Made by a program: the position numbers and the translations under genes
Notes under the pieces: generated by a model
Databases searched by the model: none
Told to the model about the DNA's origin: nothing
Seen by the model: only the letters and a program-made list of their open reading frames with translations
DNA from: Salinibacter altiplanensis
Lineage (GTDB): Bacteria; Bacteroidota; Rhodothermia; Rhodothermales; Salinibacteraceae
Length of the DNA stretch: 64,000 nucleotides
Direction of reading: 5' to 3'
NCBI RefSeq assembly: GCF_002894645.1
Contig: NZ_NCQY01000020.1
Coordinates: 143,138-207,137, forward strand
Part shown: in pieces, positions 1,331 through 28,330 of the stretch
Layout: the number at the start of each line of letters is the position of its first letter
Numbering within the stretch: the stretch's first letter is position 1

Positions 1331-2890
1331 ATGCAACGGTTCCTGACGAAATACATTTTCTGGTATGTGCTCACTGGCATCATGATCGTGGCAACGGTCC
1401 TGGTCACGCAAAGTCCCCTCGCCAGCGGGCTGGCGACGTTCGTCGGCTTCCTCACGATCGGGTCGATTACGGGGACGATCACGATCACCACGCTCACGGA
1501 CCTGCGCCACGTGACCTCGAGGCTTGCGGAGGGCAACCTCGACAAGTCCATCCGGACCGGGCGCAGCGACGAGTTCGGCGACGTGTACCGGGCGGTTGAC
1601 GACCTCCGGCAGTCGCTTCTCAATCGCATTGAGGAGGCCGAAGAGCGGAAGGCCGAGGCACAAGAGACGAAAAGCAGGGCGGAGTCCCTCGCTGAGCAGC
1701 GGGCGGAGGAAAAAGAGGCCTTGTCGGAAGAGGTGGACCGAATGGTCGAGGCGATGGACCGCTTCGCCGCGGGGGACTTGACGGTTCAGGTGGGCACTGA
1801 GATGGACGGAGAGCTGGCGTCGAAGATGGAGGCCTCCCAGGCCGAGGAGATCGCCCGCCTGCAACGCAGGTTCAACCAGTCGGTGCAGAACATCCGGCAG
1901 GTGTTTGGCCGTCTTACCGAAGCGATCGACCAGACCGACGCGGTCGCCAACCGGCTCGCCGGCTCCGCTGACCAGCTCAATGCTGGGGTCCAGACGCAGG
2001 CCCAAAAGGCCGACGAGGCCGCCGCGGCGATGGAGCAGATGGCCCGGACGATCGACGACAACGCCGAAAACGCGACGCAAACGGCCGAGGCCGCTCAGCG
2101 AAACGGGGAACTGGCCGAGGAGAACGGAGAGGTGGTCCTAGAGGCGGTCGGCAAGATGGAGGAGATTGGGGATGTCGTGAAGCGCTCCGCCGAGACCGTA
2201 AGTGGCCTGAAGGAGTCAAGCGAAGAGATCGGCAAGATTGTCGCGACGATCGACGAGATTGCCGATCAGACGAACCTGCTCGCCCTGAACGCGGCGATCG
2301 AGGCGGCTCGCGCGGGGGGCGAGGGCTCCGGCAAGTCGGGGCAGGGGTTTGCCGTGGTGGCCGAGGAGGTGCGCGAGCTGGCCGAGCGAACGTCGAAGGC
2401 GACCGACGAAATCGAGCAGATGGTCGGGTCGGTGCAGAAGGACACCAGTGAGGCGGTGGGGGCCATCGAGCAGGGACAGAGCGAGGTGGAGGCTGGCATC
2501 GAGCTGGCCGGCCAGGCGGCCGACGCCTTTGAGGAGATTGTTGACAGCACCGGGGGCATTACCGACCGGGTCGATAGCATCGCCACCGCGACGGAGGAGC
2601 AGGCCGCGACGGGCGACCAGATCTCCGAGAGCGTGCAGTCGATCTCGGATGTGTCCGACGAGTCGGCCCAGGACATTGAAGGGGTCCTTCAAGCCGCCGA
2701 GGAGCTGGAGGAGCTGACCGGCAGTCTCCGTGGCGTCGTCGAAGAGTTTCACGTTGGCAGTCATGGGGGAGACAACGGCCCCGCGGACCGTCCTCAGGCG
2801 TCTTCGACCGGCACCGGTGGGGGCTTGGAGAACGCGACGAGTGGAGACGGTGCGGCCCCGAGAAGAGAGGCACCGGGGCTTGGGGCGTAG
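1331..2890 (+). CDS. htrI: sensory rhodopsin I transducer (methyl-accepting protein)
   Basis: A 519-residue chemoreceptor-type transducer. Two transmembrane helices (about residues 9-27 and 32-52) are joined by only a few residues, so there is no periplasmic ligand domain. This fits a protein that receives its signal from a membrane-embedded rhodopsin. A HAMP region follows (about 52-105), then a long coiled-coil methylation/signalling domain. The hairpin tip contains [18 protein letters not shown] and [16 protein letters not shown], which bind CheA/CheW. The tip has a short Gly/Ser-rich insertion (GGEGSGKSG) compared with common MCPs. The Gly-rich C-terminal tail of about 45 residues looks disordered. 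Adjacent to sopI and probably cotranscribed. Confidence 0.93.
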
Positions 2891-3023
2891 AGTGGGCCCC
2901 GAGGGCGTCCGCTCGACGGGCCGTTCTTCCTGGGGATTGCGTGACCGGAGGGCCCGGGGCGGAAAGATGCCGTCCCGGGGTCAGTTCGGAGACGAACGAC
3001 GCCTCCCCATCGCTCCTGGGCAA

Positions 3024-3037
3024 GCCTTTCGAAAGGC
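3024..3037. repeat. 14-bp perfect palindrome
   Basis: GCCTTTCGAAAGGC is a perfect palindrome immediately left of the composite repeat that starts at 3041. It may be part of that element or a protein-binding site. Confidence 0.5.
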
Positions 3038-3040
3038 CTG

Positions 3041-3377
3041 AGAAGCTGTCTGGGGGATTGATGTTCAGCCGACACGAGCGTAGCGACTGACGAGTCTCGG
3101 CCGAGCAAACACAGTAGGCAAAGCTGCAAAATGGTGCCCAAGTGGGTCTCTGTCGCGGGGGCCGAGCAAGAGCGAGGTCATGCCCCTGGTGAGCGACCGG
3201 GCAAATGCAGAAGCCATTTTGCGAGAGACCCACGAAGTCGCAGCGCTGGGAGCAGAGCGACCGAGTGCTTTCAGAGTGCGCTGAGAGCAGGGCGACCGAG
3301 TGCTTTCAGAGTGCGCTGGGAGCAGAGTGACCGAGTGCTCATCGGAGTGGCCACAAGGCGTCCGCCAAGCAGTTTCT
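3041..3377. repeat. composite palindromic repeat element (long copy)
   Basis: The ends are imperfect inverted repeats: AGAAGCTGTCTGG (3041-3053) and CCAAGCAGTTTCT (3365-3377), with 10 of 13 pairs. Inside are two interleaved inverted pairs: GCAAAATGG 3126-3134 with CCATTTTGC 3214-3222, and GTGGGTCTCT 3142-3151 with AGAGACCCAC 3224-3233. The order is A-B-A'-B'. A 35-bp tandem repeat lies at 3243-3347. Segment 3074-3094 matches 51212-51232 at 18 of 21 positions, tying this copy to the element in the arsenic island. No protein is encoded. Together with short flanks it fills the 603-bp space between htrI and the next gene. Confidence 0.6.
3243..3348. repeat. three tandem copies of a 35-bp unit
   Basis: Units begin with GCGCT at 3243, 3278 and 3313, an exact 35-bp period. 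Each contains GAGCAG, CGACCGAGTGCT (TGACCGAGTGCT in the third) and ends near CAGAGT. The third copy diverges at its end. The array lies in noncoding DNA inside the composite repeat. Confidence 0.8.
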
Positions 3378-3493
3378 GAAGGTCGCGCCTGTCAGGCTCC
3401 ATGTCTCGTTCGGAAAACGTCTCCCGGATGCAGCGCGCGCCTGCGCCGGAACGGACGAATCGCCGTCTCTTGTCTGTAGGGGACCGGCCGGTG

Positions 3494-6361
3494 CTAGGTC
3501 GTGGATGAGGATCCGTCGGCCGAATTCTCTTCCGTCGAGGCCGGAAGCCGGACGGTAAACCGAGTGCCCGTGTCTTTTTCGGTGTCTACCTCGATCGCCC
3601 CCTTCATCTTGGAAACCGCCTCGTTCGTGACGGCCAGGCCGACGCCGGTCCCCTCATATTTGCGGTTCAGTCCTTCCGACGCCTGCCGGAATGGCTCAAA
3701 CAGGCCCTCGGCAACCGCCGGGTCCATTCCAATTCCGGTGTCCTCCACCACCAGTACCGCGCCGTCCTCCGCCCGAAAAGATCGAACCCAGATCTGTCCT
3801 GCCTCTTCGGTGTACTTGATGGCATTGGAGACGAGATTCCGGATTACGATCTGAACACCGCCCTCATCGGCCTCGGCCATGGCACGATCGGTCTCGAGCT
3901 GAAGGTCGATGTCTTTCTTCTCGGCCCTGGGACGGAGTTCCTGGACGGTCCAGCGAATCTGTTGGACCAGGTCCACCGGCTTTGTCTCCATCTCCATCTG
4001 CCCGGCCTGTAGCTTGGACAGATTAAGGACCCCTTCCAGGGTTTCCAGCAGCCGCTTGCCGCTCCGCTCTATCATGGTGGCGTACCCGGGAAGCGGACTG
4101 TTTGGGAGGTCTAGTCCCCCAGCCTCCGAGCCAATCAGTTCGGCGAAGCCGATGATAGACGTGAGGGGCGTGCGGATCTCGTGGCTGATGTTGGCGAGGA
4201 ACGCGCTCTTGAGGCGGTTGGCTTCTTCGGCGTCGGCCTTCGCTGTGCGAAGGGCCTCCTCCCGCTCCTTCTGGTCGGTGATGTCTTGAATCGCGCCCCG
4301 CACGCGGACGGTCCGATTGTTCACCTCCTGCGGCTCCCCGCGGGTGCGGATCCACCTCTTCTCGCCGGCCTCGGTAATCAGGCGGGCCTCTACGTCGTAG
4401 GGCCCCTCGCCGTCGACGGCGCGGCGGAAGGCCTCTTCGGCCGCTTCTCGATCGTCGGGGTGGTACAGCGCATGGCTCCGTTCGGGGGTCATCCTGCTGC
4501 CGGGGGAGAGGCCGTGGATGCGGTAGGCCTGGTCGGTGAGGGTGAGGGTGCCCGTGTCCAGGTCAAATTCCCACCCGCCAACATTGGCGATCTCCTGGGC
4601 CTGCTGGAAGAGATCGTTTTTCCGTTCAAGCTCCTCCTTGCGTCGGCGCCGTTCGGTGATGTCCTGGGCAACGGCCATCCCGGCAATCACGGCGCCGGTT
4701 TCGTCCCGAACCGGAAGGGCGCGGTTGAGGTAGCGACGCCCGCCCATCTCCTGCTCAAACACGTTCTTCTCTCCATCGAGCGCACATCGGAAATGCTCTT
4801 CCAGCTCCCGGGCCAATCCGTCCGGGAAGATGTCACGGGGACCTTTCCCTTCGACGTCCGAGGGGGCAAGTCCCACATCTCTGAGGTCCCGTCCGCCGGC
4901 CAGGGTGTACTGGAGGTCTTCGTCGAAGAGAAACACGCCGCCCGGGAAGTTCTCGATGAGCGTCTGGTAGCGCCCCTCCGCCGCCCGAAGCGCCTCCTCC
5001 CGTCGTTTCCGTTCGGTAATCTCCCGGGCCGAAACGACCATCGAGACGGTGGCCCCGTCGTCACCGACGACCGGTCGGATTGAGCCCGCGACGGTGTAGG
5101 GATCCCCGCAGGACGTCTCAAGGTCCGCCTCGTACTCGACGTACTCTCCCCCCGCGGCCCGCTCGACTTTTTCCCGGATGCTCGGCCGCGTCTCTTCGTC
5201 CCACCACGGCGTTTCCCAAAACGGCTGGCCCACCACGTCCTCACGTCGGGCATCCACATACCCCATCGCCGTCTCGTTTTGCTCGATGAGCGTGCCGTCC
5301 GGCGCGAGCACCCCGGCCAGAAGGTTCGGGTCGTTGAACGTCGCCCGGAAGCGCCGCTCACTCCGTTTCAACTCCCGCGCCCGCCGTTTCCGGTCGGCGA
5401 TGTTGCGGCCGACGCATACGATCTGTCGTTTCCCATCCGGGTCCTCGACGAGGTTGCCCACGAACTCGTAGGGCACTGTCGCCCCGTCGTCGATGCGGAG
5501 GGGCACCTCAGCCTGGCCGCTGCCGGTCTTAAACACCCGCCGGATCGCTTGTTTGGCCTGTCGCTTCCTCCTGGCCGAGACGAACGGGCCCGGCGCGTCC
5601 ACGTCTCTAATTTCGTCGTCGGAAAGACCGGTCGCCTCCAACACCCGGTCGTTCCACCACTGGAATCGGCCCTCCTCGTCCAGGGCAAAGAACAGGTCGT
5701 CGGTTGCGTTGAGTAGACGATTGGTGTACCTCCGGTGTCCTTCGAGCTGATTGCGCTGCTCCCGAAGTTCCTGTTCCTGACGTGCAAGACGCCGCCGCAC
5801 GAGCAGCACCCACCGTGCGACGATGCCCACGAGGAGGGCCACCATCACCATGCCCCCTCCCAATACCAGTGGGCTCACCTGAGCGGATGGGGCCCACAGC
5901 AGGGCGGCCCCCACAAAGAGCAGGCCCGCCAGCAAGAACGACAGCACGGACCGAAGCAATTCGCTGCTAAACAGTACGAGTGTGGCCGAGACGGCGTAGA
6001 CGACGACCATGCCCACCACGTACTCCCCGGAAAACTGATTCGCCGCTGCCAGGGCCGTGGCCCAGGCCATCAAGACGTAGAGCATCCCCCACGCAACGCC
6101 GACACAGTGAGTGCGGAGCTTCTTGAAGACGTACGTGGCCCCAACGAACGCTCCCAGAAGGCCCGCAATGCCGAGCCGAACCCACATCGGATCGGTCGCG
6201 GTGGGCTGCACGACCCTGTACAAGAGGCCGTAGAGCGGAACTACAATGCTTCCCAGAAGGCAAAGCAGACGCACGACCTGCACCCGTGACTTGGCAGTGA
6301 CGGAGAGCGTGTCGTCGTTCGGCCAGAACAGTGTGGCAACGTCAAGATCGGGAGCAGACAT
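3494..6361 (-). CDS. multi-PAS membrane sensor histidine kinase
   Basis: A 955-residue hybrid-free kinase. The N-terminal 200 residues form about five to six transmembrane helices with short loops. A coiled coil (RRRLARQEQELREQRNQLEG) leads into four consecutive PAS/PAC modules (about 210-330, 335-455, 460-575, 585-705); their PAC ends show motifs such as GRNIADRKRR and AQDITERRRR. HisKA follows with the phospho-acceptor His near residue 728 in FLANISHEIRTPLTSIIGF. HATPase_c has N, G1 (VEDTGIGM) and G2 (GTGVGLAV) boxes. The signal is unknown; the PAS array suggests redox, light or small-molecule input. No response regulator is adjacent, so it is an orphan kinase. Confidence 0.92.
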   Translation of the reverse strand: MSAPDLDVATLFWPNDDTLSVTAKSRVQVVRLLCLLGSIVVPLYGLLYRVVQPTATDPMWVRLGIAGLLGAFVGATYVFKKLRTHCVGVAWGMLYVLMAWATALAAANQFSGEYVVGMVVVYAVSATLVLFSSELLRSVLSFLLAGLLFVGAALLWAPSAQVSPLVLGGGMVMVALLVGIVARWVLLVRRRLARQEQELREQRNQLEGHRRYTNRLLNATDDLFFALDEEGRFQWWNDRVLEATGLSDDEIRDVDAPGPFVSARRKRQAKQAIRRVFKTGSGQAEVPLRIDDGATVPYEFVGNLVEDPDGKRQIVCVGRNIADRKRRARELKRSERRFRATFNDPNLLAGVLAPDGTLIEQNETAMGYVDARREDVVGQPFWETPWWDEETRPSIREKVERAAGGEYVEYEADLETSCGDPYTVAGSIRPVVGDDGATVSMVVSAREITERKRREEALRAAEGRYQTLIENFPGGVFLFDEDLQYTLAGGRDLRDVGLAPSDVEGKGPRDIFPDGLARELEEHFRCALDGEKNVFEQEMGGRRYLNRALPVRDETGAVIAGMAVAQDITERRRRKEELERKNDLFQQAQEIANVGGWEFDLDTGTLTLTDQAYRIHGLSPGSRMTPERSHALYHPDDREAAEEAFRRAVDGEGPYDVEARLITEAGEKRWIRTRGEPQEVNNRTVRVRGAIQDITDQKEREEALRTAKADAEEANRLKSAFLANISHEIRTPLTSIIGFAELIGSEAGGLDLPNSPLPGYATMIERSGKRLLETLEGVLNLSKLQAGQMEMETKPVDLVQQIRWTVQELRPRAEKKDIDLQLETDRAMAEADEGGVQIVIRNLVSNAIKYTEEAGQIWVRSFRAEDGAVLVVEDTGIGMDPAVAEGLFEPFRQASEGLNRKYEGTGVGLAVTNEAVSKMKGAIEVDTEKDTGTRFTVRLPASTEENSADGSSSTT

Positions 6362-19705: not shown

Positions 19706-20308
19706 ATGCAGCCTACGGATGAGGAACTGGTCACGGCGTACCTGAACGAAGACGACGGGGCCTTCCGGCGGCTCGTCGAACGGCACCAGGACCGTATCTT
19801 TGGCTACCTGATGGGCATGGTGAAGGACCGGGCGGTCGCCAATGATCTCTTCCAGAAGACCTTCGAGCGTGTGATCAAGGCGATGCAGGGCCAGCGTGGG
19901 TCCTACGACCGGCAGGGCCAGTGGCTGAGCTGGGTGATGAGCATCGCGCGCAACGCCGCGATCGACCACACACGGAAGCAGAAAAAATGGGCAGACGTGT
20001 CGCAGGACGAAGACGACGGGCGGTCCTTCTGGGACACCCTGGAGGACAACTCCCCCTACGCCGACGAGCAGCTCCACCGCGCGGAGCAGCGCGAGTGGCT
20101 CGACGAGCACATCGAGCAGCTCGCGCCTGAGCAGAAAGAGGTGCTCCTCCTGCGGCAGGAGACGGACCTGACCTTCCGTGAGATTTCCGAGCTCCAGGAC
20201 GTGTCCATCAACACGGCCCTCGGCCGCATGCGGTATGCCCTCAAGAACCTTCGAAAGATGATGGAAGCCTCCGACGAGACCGCGCTGGTCGGCGCGATCG
20301 ACCCGTAG
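19706..20308 (+). CDS. ECF-type RNA polymerase sigma factor
   Basis: A 200-residue sigma-70 family factor. Region 2 is seen in FRRLVERHQDRIFGYLMGMV and DLFQKTFERVIK, with WLSWVMSIARNAAIDHTRKQKK. Region 4 is LAPEQKEVLLLRQETDLTFREISELQDVSINTALGRMRYALKNLR (positions about 135-180). The next gene, 47 bp downstream, encodes a one-TM protein that looks like its anti-sigma factor. The envelope proteins that follow may be part of its regulon, by position only. Confidence 0.92.
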   Translation: MQPTDEELVTAYLNEDDGAFRRLVERHQDRIFGYLMGMVKDRAVANDLFQKTFERVIKAMQGQRGSYDRQGQWLSWVMSIARNAAIDHTRKQKKWADVSQDEDDGRSFWDTLEDNSPYADEQLHRAEQREWLDEHIEQLAPEQKEVLLLRQETDLTFREISELQDVSINTALGRMRYALKNLRKMMEASDETALVGAIDP

Positions 20309-24284: not shown

Positions 24285-24531
24285 AGGATACGGGTCGGGG
24301 GCAGTTGGGAAAAGCAACGTCCCTAAACCTCCGTTTCCCCAAGATGCGGTACAAGCAAATATTTTCTGAAGACCCATTTCCGTCCGGGACGGTCGAAAAA
24401 TGAGGGCCGTCGGGGCGGAAGTGGGGCCCAATGTAAACCTACAGACAGATCAGGAACGCCTGTCCGGGCAGAGCGGTTCATACGTTGTACTGCAAGCTAT
24501 ATTACCAGCTCCCCAACTCACTTTCCAGGTC

Positions 24532-25683
24532 ATGAGCGAGAAGGGACGTGTGCTCGTCGCCATGAGTGGCGGCGTCGACTCCTCGGTGACGGCTGTTCTG
24601 CTCAAGGAGCGTGGCTACGACGTGGTGGGCCTCACCATGAAGACGTGGGACTATTCGACCAGCGGGGGGACGGAGGGCAAAGAGGTGGGCTGTTGCTCCA
24701 TCGAGTCGATGAACGACGCCCGTGTGGTGGCGACGAAGCACGGCTTTCCGCACTTCGTCGTTGACCTCCGGGAGGAATTTGGGGACTGGGTGATTGAGCG
24801 ATTCACTGACGAGTATCTCTCGGGCCGTACGCCCAACCCCTGCGTGCTCTGCAACACCCACATCAAGTGGGATGCCCTGCTGCAGCGGGCCGACGACCTG
24901 GACTGCGAGCACATTGCCACGGGCCACTACGCCAACGTGCGCTACGACGATGAACGGGGGCGCTACCTCCTGAGCCGCGGGCTCGACCGCAACAAGGACC
25001 AGAGCTATGCGCTCTGGGGACTGCCGCAGGAGCACCTCGCCCGGTCCATCTTTCCGCTCGGGGCGTACGAGAAGCCAGAGATCCGCGAGATGGCCGCGGA
25101 GTTTGGCCTCGACAATGTGGCCGACAAGCCCGACTCCTACGAGATTTGCTTCATTCCGGACAACGACTACCCCCGCTTTTTGAAAGACCGTGTGGATGGG
25201 CTCACGGAAGAGGTGAGCGGCGGCACGTTCGTGCTCAGTGACGGCACCGTCGTGGGAGAGCACGACGGCTATCCGTTCTACACCGTCGGCCAGCGTCGAG
25301 GGCTTGACCTTGCGCTCGGCGAGCGGGTCTACGTCACCGACATCGATCCCGAGACGAATACGATCACGGTAGGGCCGAAGGAGGAGCTCATGGAGCAGAC
25401 CCTGACGGCCCACGAGATTAACCTCGTGAAGTACCCCGAGATTGAAGAGGAGCGCTCGGCCTGGGGCACCATCCGCTACAACGACGATGGGGCGGGGTGC
25501 CTTGCGTGGCAGCCGGACGCGGACACCCTGAAGGTCGCCTTTGCCGAGCCGAAACGCGCCATCACGCCGGGGCAAAGTCTCGTGCTGTACGAGGACGACG
25601 ACGTGCTCGGTGGGGGATGGATCCACGAGGTGGGCAGTGCCGAGGCCGACACGGCGGAGCGGGGGGCCGAAGCGCCGGTGTAG
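24532..25683 (+). CDS. mnmA: tRNA-specific 2-thiouridylase MnmA
   Basis: A 383-residue enzyme that thiolates U34 of tRNA(Lys, Glu, Gln). It shows the PP-loop SGGVDSSV, the catalytic Cys pair in NPCVLCN and YEICF, and the family motifs KDQSYALW, YTVGQRRGL and TVGPKEEL. The start at ATG 24532 fits the usual N-terminus MSEKGRVLVAMSGG. Single gene; the 217 bp after it contain nothing I recognise. Confidence 0.95.
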   Translation: MSEKGRVLVAMSGGVDSSVTAVLLKERGYDVVGLTMKTWDYSTSGGTEGKEVGCCSIESMNDARVVATKHGFPHFVVDLREEFGDWVIERFTDEYLSGRTPNPCVLCNTHIKWDALLQRADDLDCEHIATGHYANVRYDDERGRYLLSRGLDRNKDQSYALWGLPQEHLARSIFPLGAYEKPEIREMAAEFGLDNVADKPDSYEICFIPDNDYPRFLKDRVDGLTEEVSGGTFVLSDGTVVGEHDGYPFYTVGQRRGLDLALGERVYVTDIDPETNTITVGPKEELMEQTLTAHEINLVKYPEIEEERSAWGTIRYNDDGAGCLAWQPDADTLKVAFAEPKRAITPGQSLVLYEDDDVLGGGWIHEVGSAEADTAERGAEAPV

Positions 25684-25900
25684 GCCCGTCCCTGCCGAGG
25701 CACCGTCTGTGTGGGCGGACGGGGCGGAGCCTCCCCCCTGCGTGTTCCGAAGAAAGAGGCACAGCAGCCTACAGAATTGGGGACGGGTGGAACACTGAAT
25801 TTCGCCCCCTGGTTCAATTTTCGCTCATTCATGTTTCAAAAACAACAAGACGCGGCGTTCCGGACGGCAGCCCGTCTCGGAGCGCGCGAGCCCCCAGTCT

Positions 25901-27334
25901 ATGGAACGCACGGACCTGACGCGGATCGACGAGTTCACATGGGAAATCCCCCAGTCGTTCCAGGAAGCGATGCGGGTGCCCGTGCGCATCCTTGCCAGTG
26001 AGAACCTCATCGACGAGATTCTTGAGCGAAAGGCCATCGAGCAGGCCATCCGCACCTCTATGCTCTCTGGGCTGGTGGGGCACCTGGTGGTGATGCCCGA
26101 TGTTTACAGTGGGCAGGGCGCCCCGGTCGGCATCGTGGCCGTGTCGAAATGGCCGGTGGGCACCATCGCACCCGGCGCCATTGGGCACGACATCAACGCG
26201 GGCGTTCGGCTGCTGGGGTCGGACATCAAGGTGGAGGAGGCGGAGGGCAACTTCGATGCCCTCGCCGATGCCCTGACGAATCACATCCCAAGTGGGACGG
26301 ACGCGGAGGGCTCCATCTCACTCAACAAGAGCGAGGTCGACCACGTCGCCCAGTCTGGGGCCCAGTGGGCCCTGCGCAAGGACATGGCGCAGCAGGACGA
26401 CCTCGTCCGGGCGGAGGAGGGAGGACGTCTTAACGAGGCGGATCCGAAGAAGGTGAGTGAGGCGGCCCGGTCGCTTGGGGCGCAGCAGCTCGGCACGCTC
26501 GGGGGCGGGGAGCACTTCATTGAGATTCACTCCGTGGAGGAGGTCTTCAACCGCGCAGCGGCCGTCACGATGGGGCTGAAGGAGGGCACCCTCGTTGCTC
26601 AGGTTCACTGCGGCTCCCGCGGGTACGGCCGTCAGGTCTGTGCCGACTACATCGAGCGGTTTCAGGAAGTGGCGCCGTCGTACGACATCGATCCGCCGGA
26701 TCCCAGCCTGGCGTCGGTGCCGCTCGATTCGAGCGAGGCCGAAGACTACATGGGGGCCATGCGGGCGGCCGCGAACTACGCCTACGCCAACCGACAGGTG
26801 TTGGCCCACCGCGTCCGCGAGGTCTTCGATGGGCTTCTCGAAGAGGGGGCCGGCCAACGGCTCAAGACGGTGTACGACGTGGCCCACAACCTGGGGCAGG
26901 TGGAGATGCATCAGGTCGACGGCAAGCACATGCGCTGCTACGTGCACCGCAAGGGAGCGGCGCGCGCCTTCGGGCCCGGTACGCCCGGCATCTCGCTTCC
27001 GTACCGCGCCCTTGGGCAGCCGGTCCTGGTGCCCGGAAGCATGGGCGAGACTTCATGGGTCATGCTGGCCACCCGGGATGCCATGCAGAAGAGCTTCGGC
27101 TCGGCCTGTCACGGGGCCGGGCGGACAATGAGCCGCCACGAAGCGAACCACCAGGCCGAACCGGTGCCGCTCGACGGAGAGGGGGATGGCGTTGCCGTCC
27201 GGTCCGCCGACGGCTCGGCTCCCGCTGGGGTGCAGCTGAAAGAGAACATCGGCGGTGTCGTGGAGACGGTGGCCGGGTCCCGGCTCGCCGGCAAGGTGGC
27301 GCGGCTGGAGCCCCTCGCGGTCATGCACGGCTGA
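25901..27334 (+). CDS. RtcB-family protein with altered active site
   Basis: A 477-residue homologue of the RNA-splicing ligase RtcB, which joins 2',3'-cyclic phosphate to 5'-OH RNA ends using GTP and two Mn ions. Kept: Asp97 (GHDINAG), His205, His236 (VHCGSRG), AHN near 330, and the guanylylated His404 in CHGAGR. Changed against the well-studied archaeal enzyme: the metal-bridging Cys is Ala100 (DINCG to DINAG), Asn is Glu204 (GGGEHF), MPDVH is MPDVY (Tyr69) and the terminal VVKG Lys is His476 (VMHG). Membership in the family is certain; ligase activity is not. No RNA-repair partner genes are adjacent. Confidence 0.85.
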   Translation: MERTDLTRIDEFTWEIPQSFQEAMRVPVRILASENLIDEILERKAIEQAIRTSMLSGLVGHLVVMPDVYSGQGAPVGIVAVSKWPVGTIAPGAIGHDINAGVRLLGSDIKVEEAEGNFDALADALTNHIPSGTDAEGSISLNKSEVDHVAQSGAQWALRKDMAQQDDLVRAEEGGRLNEADPKKVSEAARSLGAQQLGTLGGGEHFIEIHSVEEVFNRAAAVTMGLKEGTLVAQVHCGSRGYGRQVCADYIERFQEVAPSYDIDPPDPSLASVPLDSSEAEDYMGAMRAAANYAYANRQVLAHRVREVFDGLLEEGAGQRLKTVYDVAHNLGQVEMHQVDGKHMRCYVHRKGAARAFGPGTPGISLPYRALGQPVLVPGSMGETSWVMLATRDAMQKSFGSACHGAGRTMSRHEANHQAEPVPLDGEGDGVAVRSADGSAPAGVQLKENIGGVVETVAGSRLAGKVARLEPLAVMHG

Positions 27335-27589: not shown

Positions 27590-28330
27590 ATGTCCGACTC
27601 CGATCCCGAAGGCCCGTCTCTCCTCGTCGTTGAGGATGACAGCGAGCTTAGCACGAGTCTGCTGCTTTATCTGGAATCTGAGGGCTACGAGGTGACGCTT
27701 GCCGAGACCGGGGAGACGGCCCTCCAGGAGGCCACGCGGCTGCCGGGGTACGACCTCATCGTCCTCGACGCGAAGCTGCCGGACCTCAGCGGCTTCGAGG
27801 TGCTCCGACAGTCCCGTGACGACGGCGTCCGCACGCCGGTGCTCATGCTCACGGGCCTCGGCGACCACGAGCACAAGATGCGGGGCTTTCAGGTCGGGGC
27901 CGACGACTACCTCACGAAGCCGTTCGAGACGGAGGAGTTTGTGGCCCGGATCGACGTGCTGCTTCGGCGGGAGGCGGAGGCGACCGATGAAACCGGGACG
28001 TTTCGGGTCGGGGGCCTCCACATAAACCTCGAGGAAGATGAGGTCGCGCGGGACGGAGAGCCCGTCGACCTGACCGATCTGGAGTACAAACTGCTTGCGT
28101 ACCTGCTGCGCCGCCGTGGCCGCACGGCCACCCGTGAGCAGATTCTCCGCGACGTTTGGGACCTGCCCACCGAGGTTGAGACGCGCACCATCGACCGGCA
28201 CGTCAATGCTCTTCGGGATGTGATGGATGGGGAGGGAGAAGATGCGTGGCCCATCCAGAGCGTCTACGGCATTGGGTACAAGCTGGAGGGGGCCGAGCGG
28301 ACGACGGAGTCCGAGCAGGAGGCGGCGTAA
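27590..28330 (+). CDS. OmpR/PhoB-type response regulator
   Basis: A 246-residue two-component regulator. The receiver domain (about 9-125) has acidic pocket VVEDD, phospho-acceptor Asp in LIVLDAKLP, Thr in MLTGLG and Lys in YLTKPF. The C-terminal winged helix (about 140-235) has GEPVDLTDLEYKLLAYLLRR and RTIDRHVNALR, ending in VYGIGYKLE. No kinase gene is adjacent, so its partner is unknown. It converges with a second regulator of the same type. Confidence 0.92.
   Translation: MSDSDPEGPSLLVVEDDSELSTSLLLYLESEGYEVTLAETGETALQEATRLPGYDLIVLDAKLPDLSGFEVLRQSRDDGVRTPVLMLTGLGDHEHKMRGFQVGADDYLTKPFETEEFVARIDVLLRREAEATDETGTFRVGGLHINLEEDEVARDGEPVDLTDLEYKLLAYLLRRRGRTATREQILRDVWDLPTEVETRTIDRHVNALRDVMDGEGEDAWPIQSVYGIGYKLEGAERTTESEQEAA

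Follow-up and report, generated by a model that had tools for sequence, protein, structure and literature searches.

The window, the whole 64,000-nucleotide stretch of Salinibacter altiplanensis DNA that was analysed, contains an open reading frame (25901-27334, + strand), here designated rtcBv, that runs uninterrupted from ATG to stop and encodes a protein of 477 amino acids. The protein matched PF01139 over model positions 1-426 of 426 with 447.6 bits (cut-off 27 bits) and aligned end to end with PH1602 of Pyrococcus horikoshii at 43% identity. These results establish that rtcBv is an RtcB homologue belonging to the RtcB superfamily, and confirm the first-pass annotation of the gene as intact and full-length. 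An AlphaFold model computed from 80 sequences, canonical RtcBs included, had a pLDDT of 91 and was matched by Foldseek to 1uc2 (PH1602) and 4dwq with a TM score of 0.94, indicating an RtcB fold; pLDDT fell below 50 at residues 409-428 and 440-446, two C-terminal segments close to the residues of the GTP pocket. An earlier model built from 16 close homologues (pLDDT 35.5) was discarded. The locus is arranged as follows.

24400-25683, + strand: mnmA, conserved upstream neighbour, context only; 217 bp gap to rtcBv; true start probably downstream of 24400
25789-25817, + strand: GGAACA-N16-GGTTCAA, conserved upstream element, 83 bp before the ATG; ECF-sigma-type promoter by resemblance only
25901-27334, + strand: rtcBv, variant RtcB paralog, 477 aa (open reading frame, PF01139, PH1602 alignment, AlphaFold model)
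27590-28330, + strand: OmpR/PhoB-type response regulator, conserved downstream neighbour, context only (neighbourhood comparison)

The metal ligands of human RTCB are D119, C122, H227, H259 and H353, replacement of any of which with Ala abolished ligation, and guanylylation by the C122A and H353A proteins was below detection (PMC10944509). Asn226 of the human enzyme contacts phosphate, Glu230, Ser409 and Lys504 contact guanine (PMC8668186), and Tyr475 was tied to GTP binding by modelling (PMC10630183). Their counterparts in P. horikoshii (Ph) numbering, offset by 24 or 25, are D95, C98, H203, H234, H329, N202, E206, S385, K480 and Y451, respectively. Alignment of rtcBv with PH1602 placed Ala100 at C98, Glu204 at N202, Tyr69 at H67 and His476 at K480. 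The first-pass annotation had proposed these four replacements, of the metal-bridging Cys, the Asn preceding a ligand His, the His of MPDVH and a near-terminal Lys, and had named a shifted alignment as what would overturn them; the motifs on either side are free of gaps, which rules out a shift as their source. In a reference set of 67 canonical RtcBs from several phyla, C98, N202 and H67 were each present in 67/67 and K480 in 65/65 where the alignment reaches that column. The first-pass annotation had not noted the changes of Y451 to Lys447 and K452 to Glu448, or the absence of E445/E446, a pair close to the guanine site for which the exact partner column is uncertain. Of 91 near-invariant columns, 19 are altered in rtcBv; six canonical sequences, each left out in turn, had between 0 and 6 altered. 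Four of the five metal ligands are retained (Asp97, His205, His236 and His329), as are the nucleophile His404, R240 and Lys351; the GTP pocket retains Glu208 and Ser385 (E206 and S385 in PH1602), with N202, Y451 and K480 replaced.

26105-26107, + strand: Tyr69 codon, canonical H67 of MPDxH (alignment)
26189-26191, + strand: Asp97 codon, kept metal B ligand, Ph D95, human D119 (alignment; role PMC10944509)
26198-26200, + strand: Ala100 codon in place of metal-bridging Cys98 (Cys in 67/67 canonical; A/T/V/S in 20 variants)
26510-26515, + strand: Glu204-His205 codons, alpha-phosphate Asn202 replaced and metal B ligand His203 kept (alignment; roles PMC8668186, PMC10944509)
26606-26608, + strand: His236 codon, kept metal A ligand, Ph H234 (active-site tabulation)
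26885-26887, + strand: His329 codon, kept metal A ligand (active-site tabulation)
27110-27112, + strand: His404 codon, nucleophile position kept (active-site tabulation)
27239-27241, + strand: Lys447 codon in place of Y451, human Tyr475, linked to GTP binding (tabulation; PMC10630183)
27326-27328, + strand: His476 codon in place of guanine-contacting Lys480 (alignment; human Lys504 role PMC8668186)

Cys98 was lost in all 20 variants found in the Salinibacteraceae, replaced by A, T, V or S. The bridging Cys of RtcB is generally described as both universal and indispensable. Asn202 (E, Q or A, with Glu in 17/20) and Y451 were likewise lost in 20/20, and Lys480 was lost across the 20, being His in 17 and lying outside the aligned end in 3. 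The His of MPDVH was lost in 18/20 (Tyr in 16, S in L061/062) and kept in L060 and L063; of the four changes, whose joint occurrence in a clade the first-pass annotation had proposed to check, those of Cys, Asn and Lys go together, and the change to MPDVY, true of rtcBv itself, is not clade-wide. L061/062 also carry Ala at 202 and Arg at 94. Residues D95, H203, E206, H234, H329, K351, S385 and H404 were kept in 20/20 variants, in agreement with the earlier observation that the nucleophile and most His ligands survive, and in 2/2 sister sequences. The sisters, L064 and L065 (both 1501-2907), occupy the same chromosomal place, retain Cys98, have lost Asn202 and Lys480, and show changes of their own (D65N, R238A, CHGAG to THSGA). 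In a tree that took in 13 of the 20 variants, these and the two sisters formed one branch (100/100) and the canonical RtcBs of the family another (100/100); a quick tree agreed on a single clade. A long-branch warning was raised at the sister pair, the placement of which is independently supported by synteny. By its matches within the family, the window genome falls into the Salinibacter/Salinivenus group. Recent duplication within the family is a less favoured but possible origin of the clade: the free tree parts the two paralogs, but the AU test rejects their grouping only weakly (p 0.041).

Outside the Salinibacteraceae, no variant was detected by profile/protein search of 245 genomes of the class, ~250 of the phylum, 299 of the L044 phylum and 98 of the L043 phylum, and none by pattern scan of viral contigs. 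Plasmid matches were all below 60% identity (three were inspected), and the highest scorer outside the family, in G749, proved to be a canonical RtcB. Two metagenome-assembled (MAG) copies from one genus are atypical: L082 (~2514-4029) is split by a frameshift, and an insert is recorded for L083 (2319-4163) and L063, with assembly error or decay as possible causes. Many genomes of the family also encode a canonical RtcB ~42% identical to the variant, and where both paralogs exist archease accompanies the canonical copy, often adjoining it. Archease (PF01951) was present in 13/27 family genomes; no PF01951 match was found in the genome carrying rtcBv, which is 99.75% complete. The variant is the only RtcB, and archease is absent, in the window genome, G147, G195, G294 and G304, four of which are close Salinibacter genomes. 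Since the variant persists where archease is absent, rtcBv appears to be independent of it. Three canonical RtcBs of the family (L079, L080 and L081, in three genomes) contain an intein of ~500 aa at the metal-bridging Cys (DINC ... SNCGVR), and G307 encodes two canonical RtcB-archease pairs (L069, L071) in addition to a variant sister.

Widely across the family, the genes follow the order ridA, mnmA, rtcBv, response regulator, response regulator, M42 peptidase, DAHP synthase. Both mnmA and the first regulator occupy their usual positions around L087/L088, G304 retains the regulator alone and G288 has neither neighbour. Gaps of ~120-760 bp downstream and 180-2280 bp upstream disfavour a tight operon with mnmA or the response regulator. 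In two genera a divergent gene lies beside the variant (L090, 8856-9881; L091, 8456-9577), which by eye has the look of an AFG1/ZapE-type ATPase. Among closer relatives, 82-96 bp separate the end of the element GGAACA-N16-GGTTCAA from the start codon; 12 loci match it exactly and a thirteenth has one mismatch. A degenerate element with 1-3 mismatches at 63-111 bp precedes the gene in five deeper members, among them G304 and G288 with their differing upstream genes; L087/L088 lack the element, and no good match was found upstream of canonical copies. The copy at 25789-25817 is the sole exact match in the genome. GGAAC and GTT resemble the -35 and -10 sequences of promoters read by ECF sigma factors (PMC6338062), and by this resemblance only the element is a candidate ECF-sigma-type promoter; expression of rtcBv probably relies on this conserved promoter-like element of its own. 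An ECF-type sigma factor gene lies ~6 kb upstream of rtcBv (19706-20308) and is conserved near the loci of many relatives.

Comparison of rtcBv with L003 gave a dN/dS of 0.034 (dS 0.48); mnmA and the response regulator gave 0.049 and 0.035, respectively, for the same genome pair. Values ranged from 0.034 to 0.07 among close variant pairs, the sisters gave 0.039, also indicative of purifying selection, and frames were intact in nearly all genomes with the variant. The frameshift-split copy and the copy with an insert would suit a ligase that is no longer required and is decaying; however, this explanation is largely refuted by the selection data, is further opposed by conservation of the upstream element, and is judged extremely improbable. 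The proposal of a distinct RtcB subgroup is borne out by a single, family-wide, syntenic clade under strong purifying selection.

Replacement of the Cys by Ala yields ligase-dead RtcB from P. aerophilum, E. coli and human (PMC10630183), and normal GTP-dependent ligation by rtcBv is therefore unlikely. The first-pass suggestion that metal use is altered or that the reaction differs is likely, judging from the residues involved. The His/Asp cluster and His404 are fixed while many otherwise invariant positions have changed, which suggests that the variants retain metal binding and probably chemistry. Our preferred reading, adopted tentatively and with slightly less than even confidence, is that rtcBv is a functional paralog that has dispensed with GTP-dependent ligation, keeps the metal-binding His/Asp cluster and acts on or binds RNA ends. 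It would represent an old, vertically inherited Salinibacteraceae paralog in which ligation of 3'-phosphate and 5'-OH ends was lost and the protein went on working; a divalent metal would still be bound through the His/Asp cluster, and 2',3'-cyclic- or 3'-phosphate RNA ends would be processed or protected without the normal RtcB-GMP intermediate. A further reading, considered doubtful, is that an RtcB fold with non-ligase chemistry carries out a metal-dependent, GTP-independent reaction at RNA 3' ends, for example opening of the cyclic phosphate or formation of a different His404 intermediate. Against loss of ligation, the guanine contacts Glu208 and Ser385 are kept and nucleotide binding could remain, the His at 480 (17/20 variants) could still donate a hydrogen bond, and what mutants of canonical enzymes show may not hold for a protein that has compensating changes (His96, Glu204).

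The main rival is a re-engineered, Cys-free ligase that would still guanylylate and ligate, with the missing ligands supplied by Glu204 and perhaps His96 and the role of Lys480 taken over by His476. RtcB is known to be vulnerable to oxidation of its Cys (PMC13247085, PMC10630183), and loss of the oxidation-prone residue would suit an aerobic, high-light habitat; the His/Asp ligands, nucleophile, R240, K351, Glu208 and Ser385 are all kept, Glu204 and His480 are themselves conserved (17/20 each), and the variant is the sole RtcB in four close Salinibacter genomes. However, the Cys site is occupied by A, T, V or S and no substitute ligand is consistently present; in L061/062 position 202 is Ala and position 94 is Arg. 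Y451 and the E445/E446 pair have disappeared too, and the Cys has not been regained in genomes that lack a canonical copy. On balance such a ligase is rather unlikely, and ranks behind the RNA-end function without a GMP intermediate. Next in order is a pseudoenzyme, devoid of catalysis, that would serve in RNA-end binding or as a regulatory scaffold. Combined loss of Cys, Asn and Lys would fit, and L064/065 have lost a different set of residues, as expected if catalysis were irrelevant, and are nonetheless under purifying selection; yet 22/22 sequences keep D95, H203, H234, H329, K351 and His404 amid many changed invariant positions, and since a purely non-catalytic protein would not need the ligands and His404 this role is considered improbable.

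A natural, selected lineage carries the Cys-to-Ala change that kills laboratory enzymes, as the only RtcB in several genomes. rtcBv offers a direct test of which residues ligation needs, of RtcB chemistry without the oxidation-prone Cys and of a second function of the fold, with the canonical copy often present in related genomes as a ready-made control.

With canonical RtcB (PF01139; PH1602, human RTCB) rtcBv shares the predicted full-length fold, four of five metal ligands, His404, Lys351, Glu206 and Ser385; it differs in lacking the metal-bridging Cys98, the alpha-phosphate Asn202, Tyr451 and the guanine-contacting Lys480, and in a host genome without archease. The archease-linked canonical RtcBs of the family (L070-L081, some with inteins) belong to the same superfamily and occur in many of the same genomes, but form their separate clade, in which the canonical active site is complete. 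The RtcB2 protein of the RtcB2-PrfH module is also of this superfamily, but rtcBv scored 116 bits with TIGR03073 (curated cut-off 272) and 149 bits with NF007153 (curated cut-off 407) and falls outside that group; a release-factor gene, as in that module, was not found among the neighbours examined. As described in a paper that cites the original work (Maughan and Shuman 2015, cited in PMC10630183), the RtcB paralogs of Myxococcus xanthus differ in their activities, which include end capping, and on that description they provide a precedent for rtcBv.
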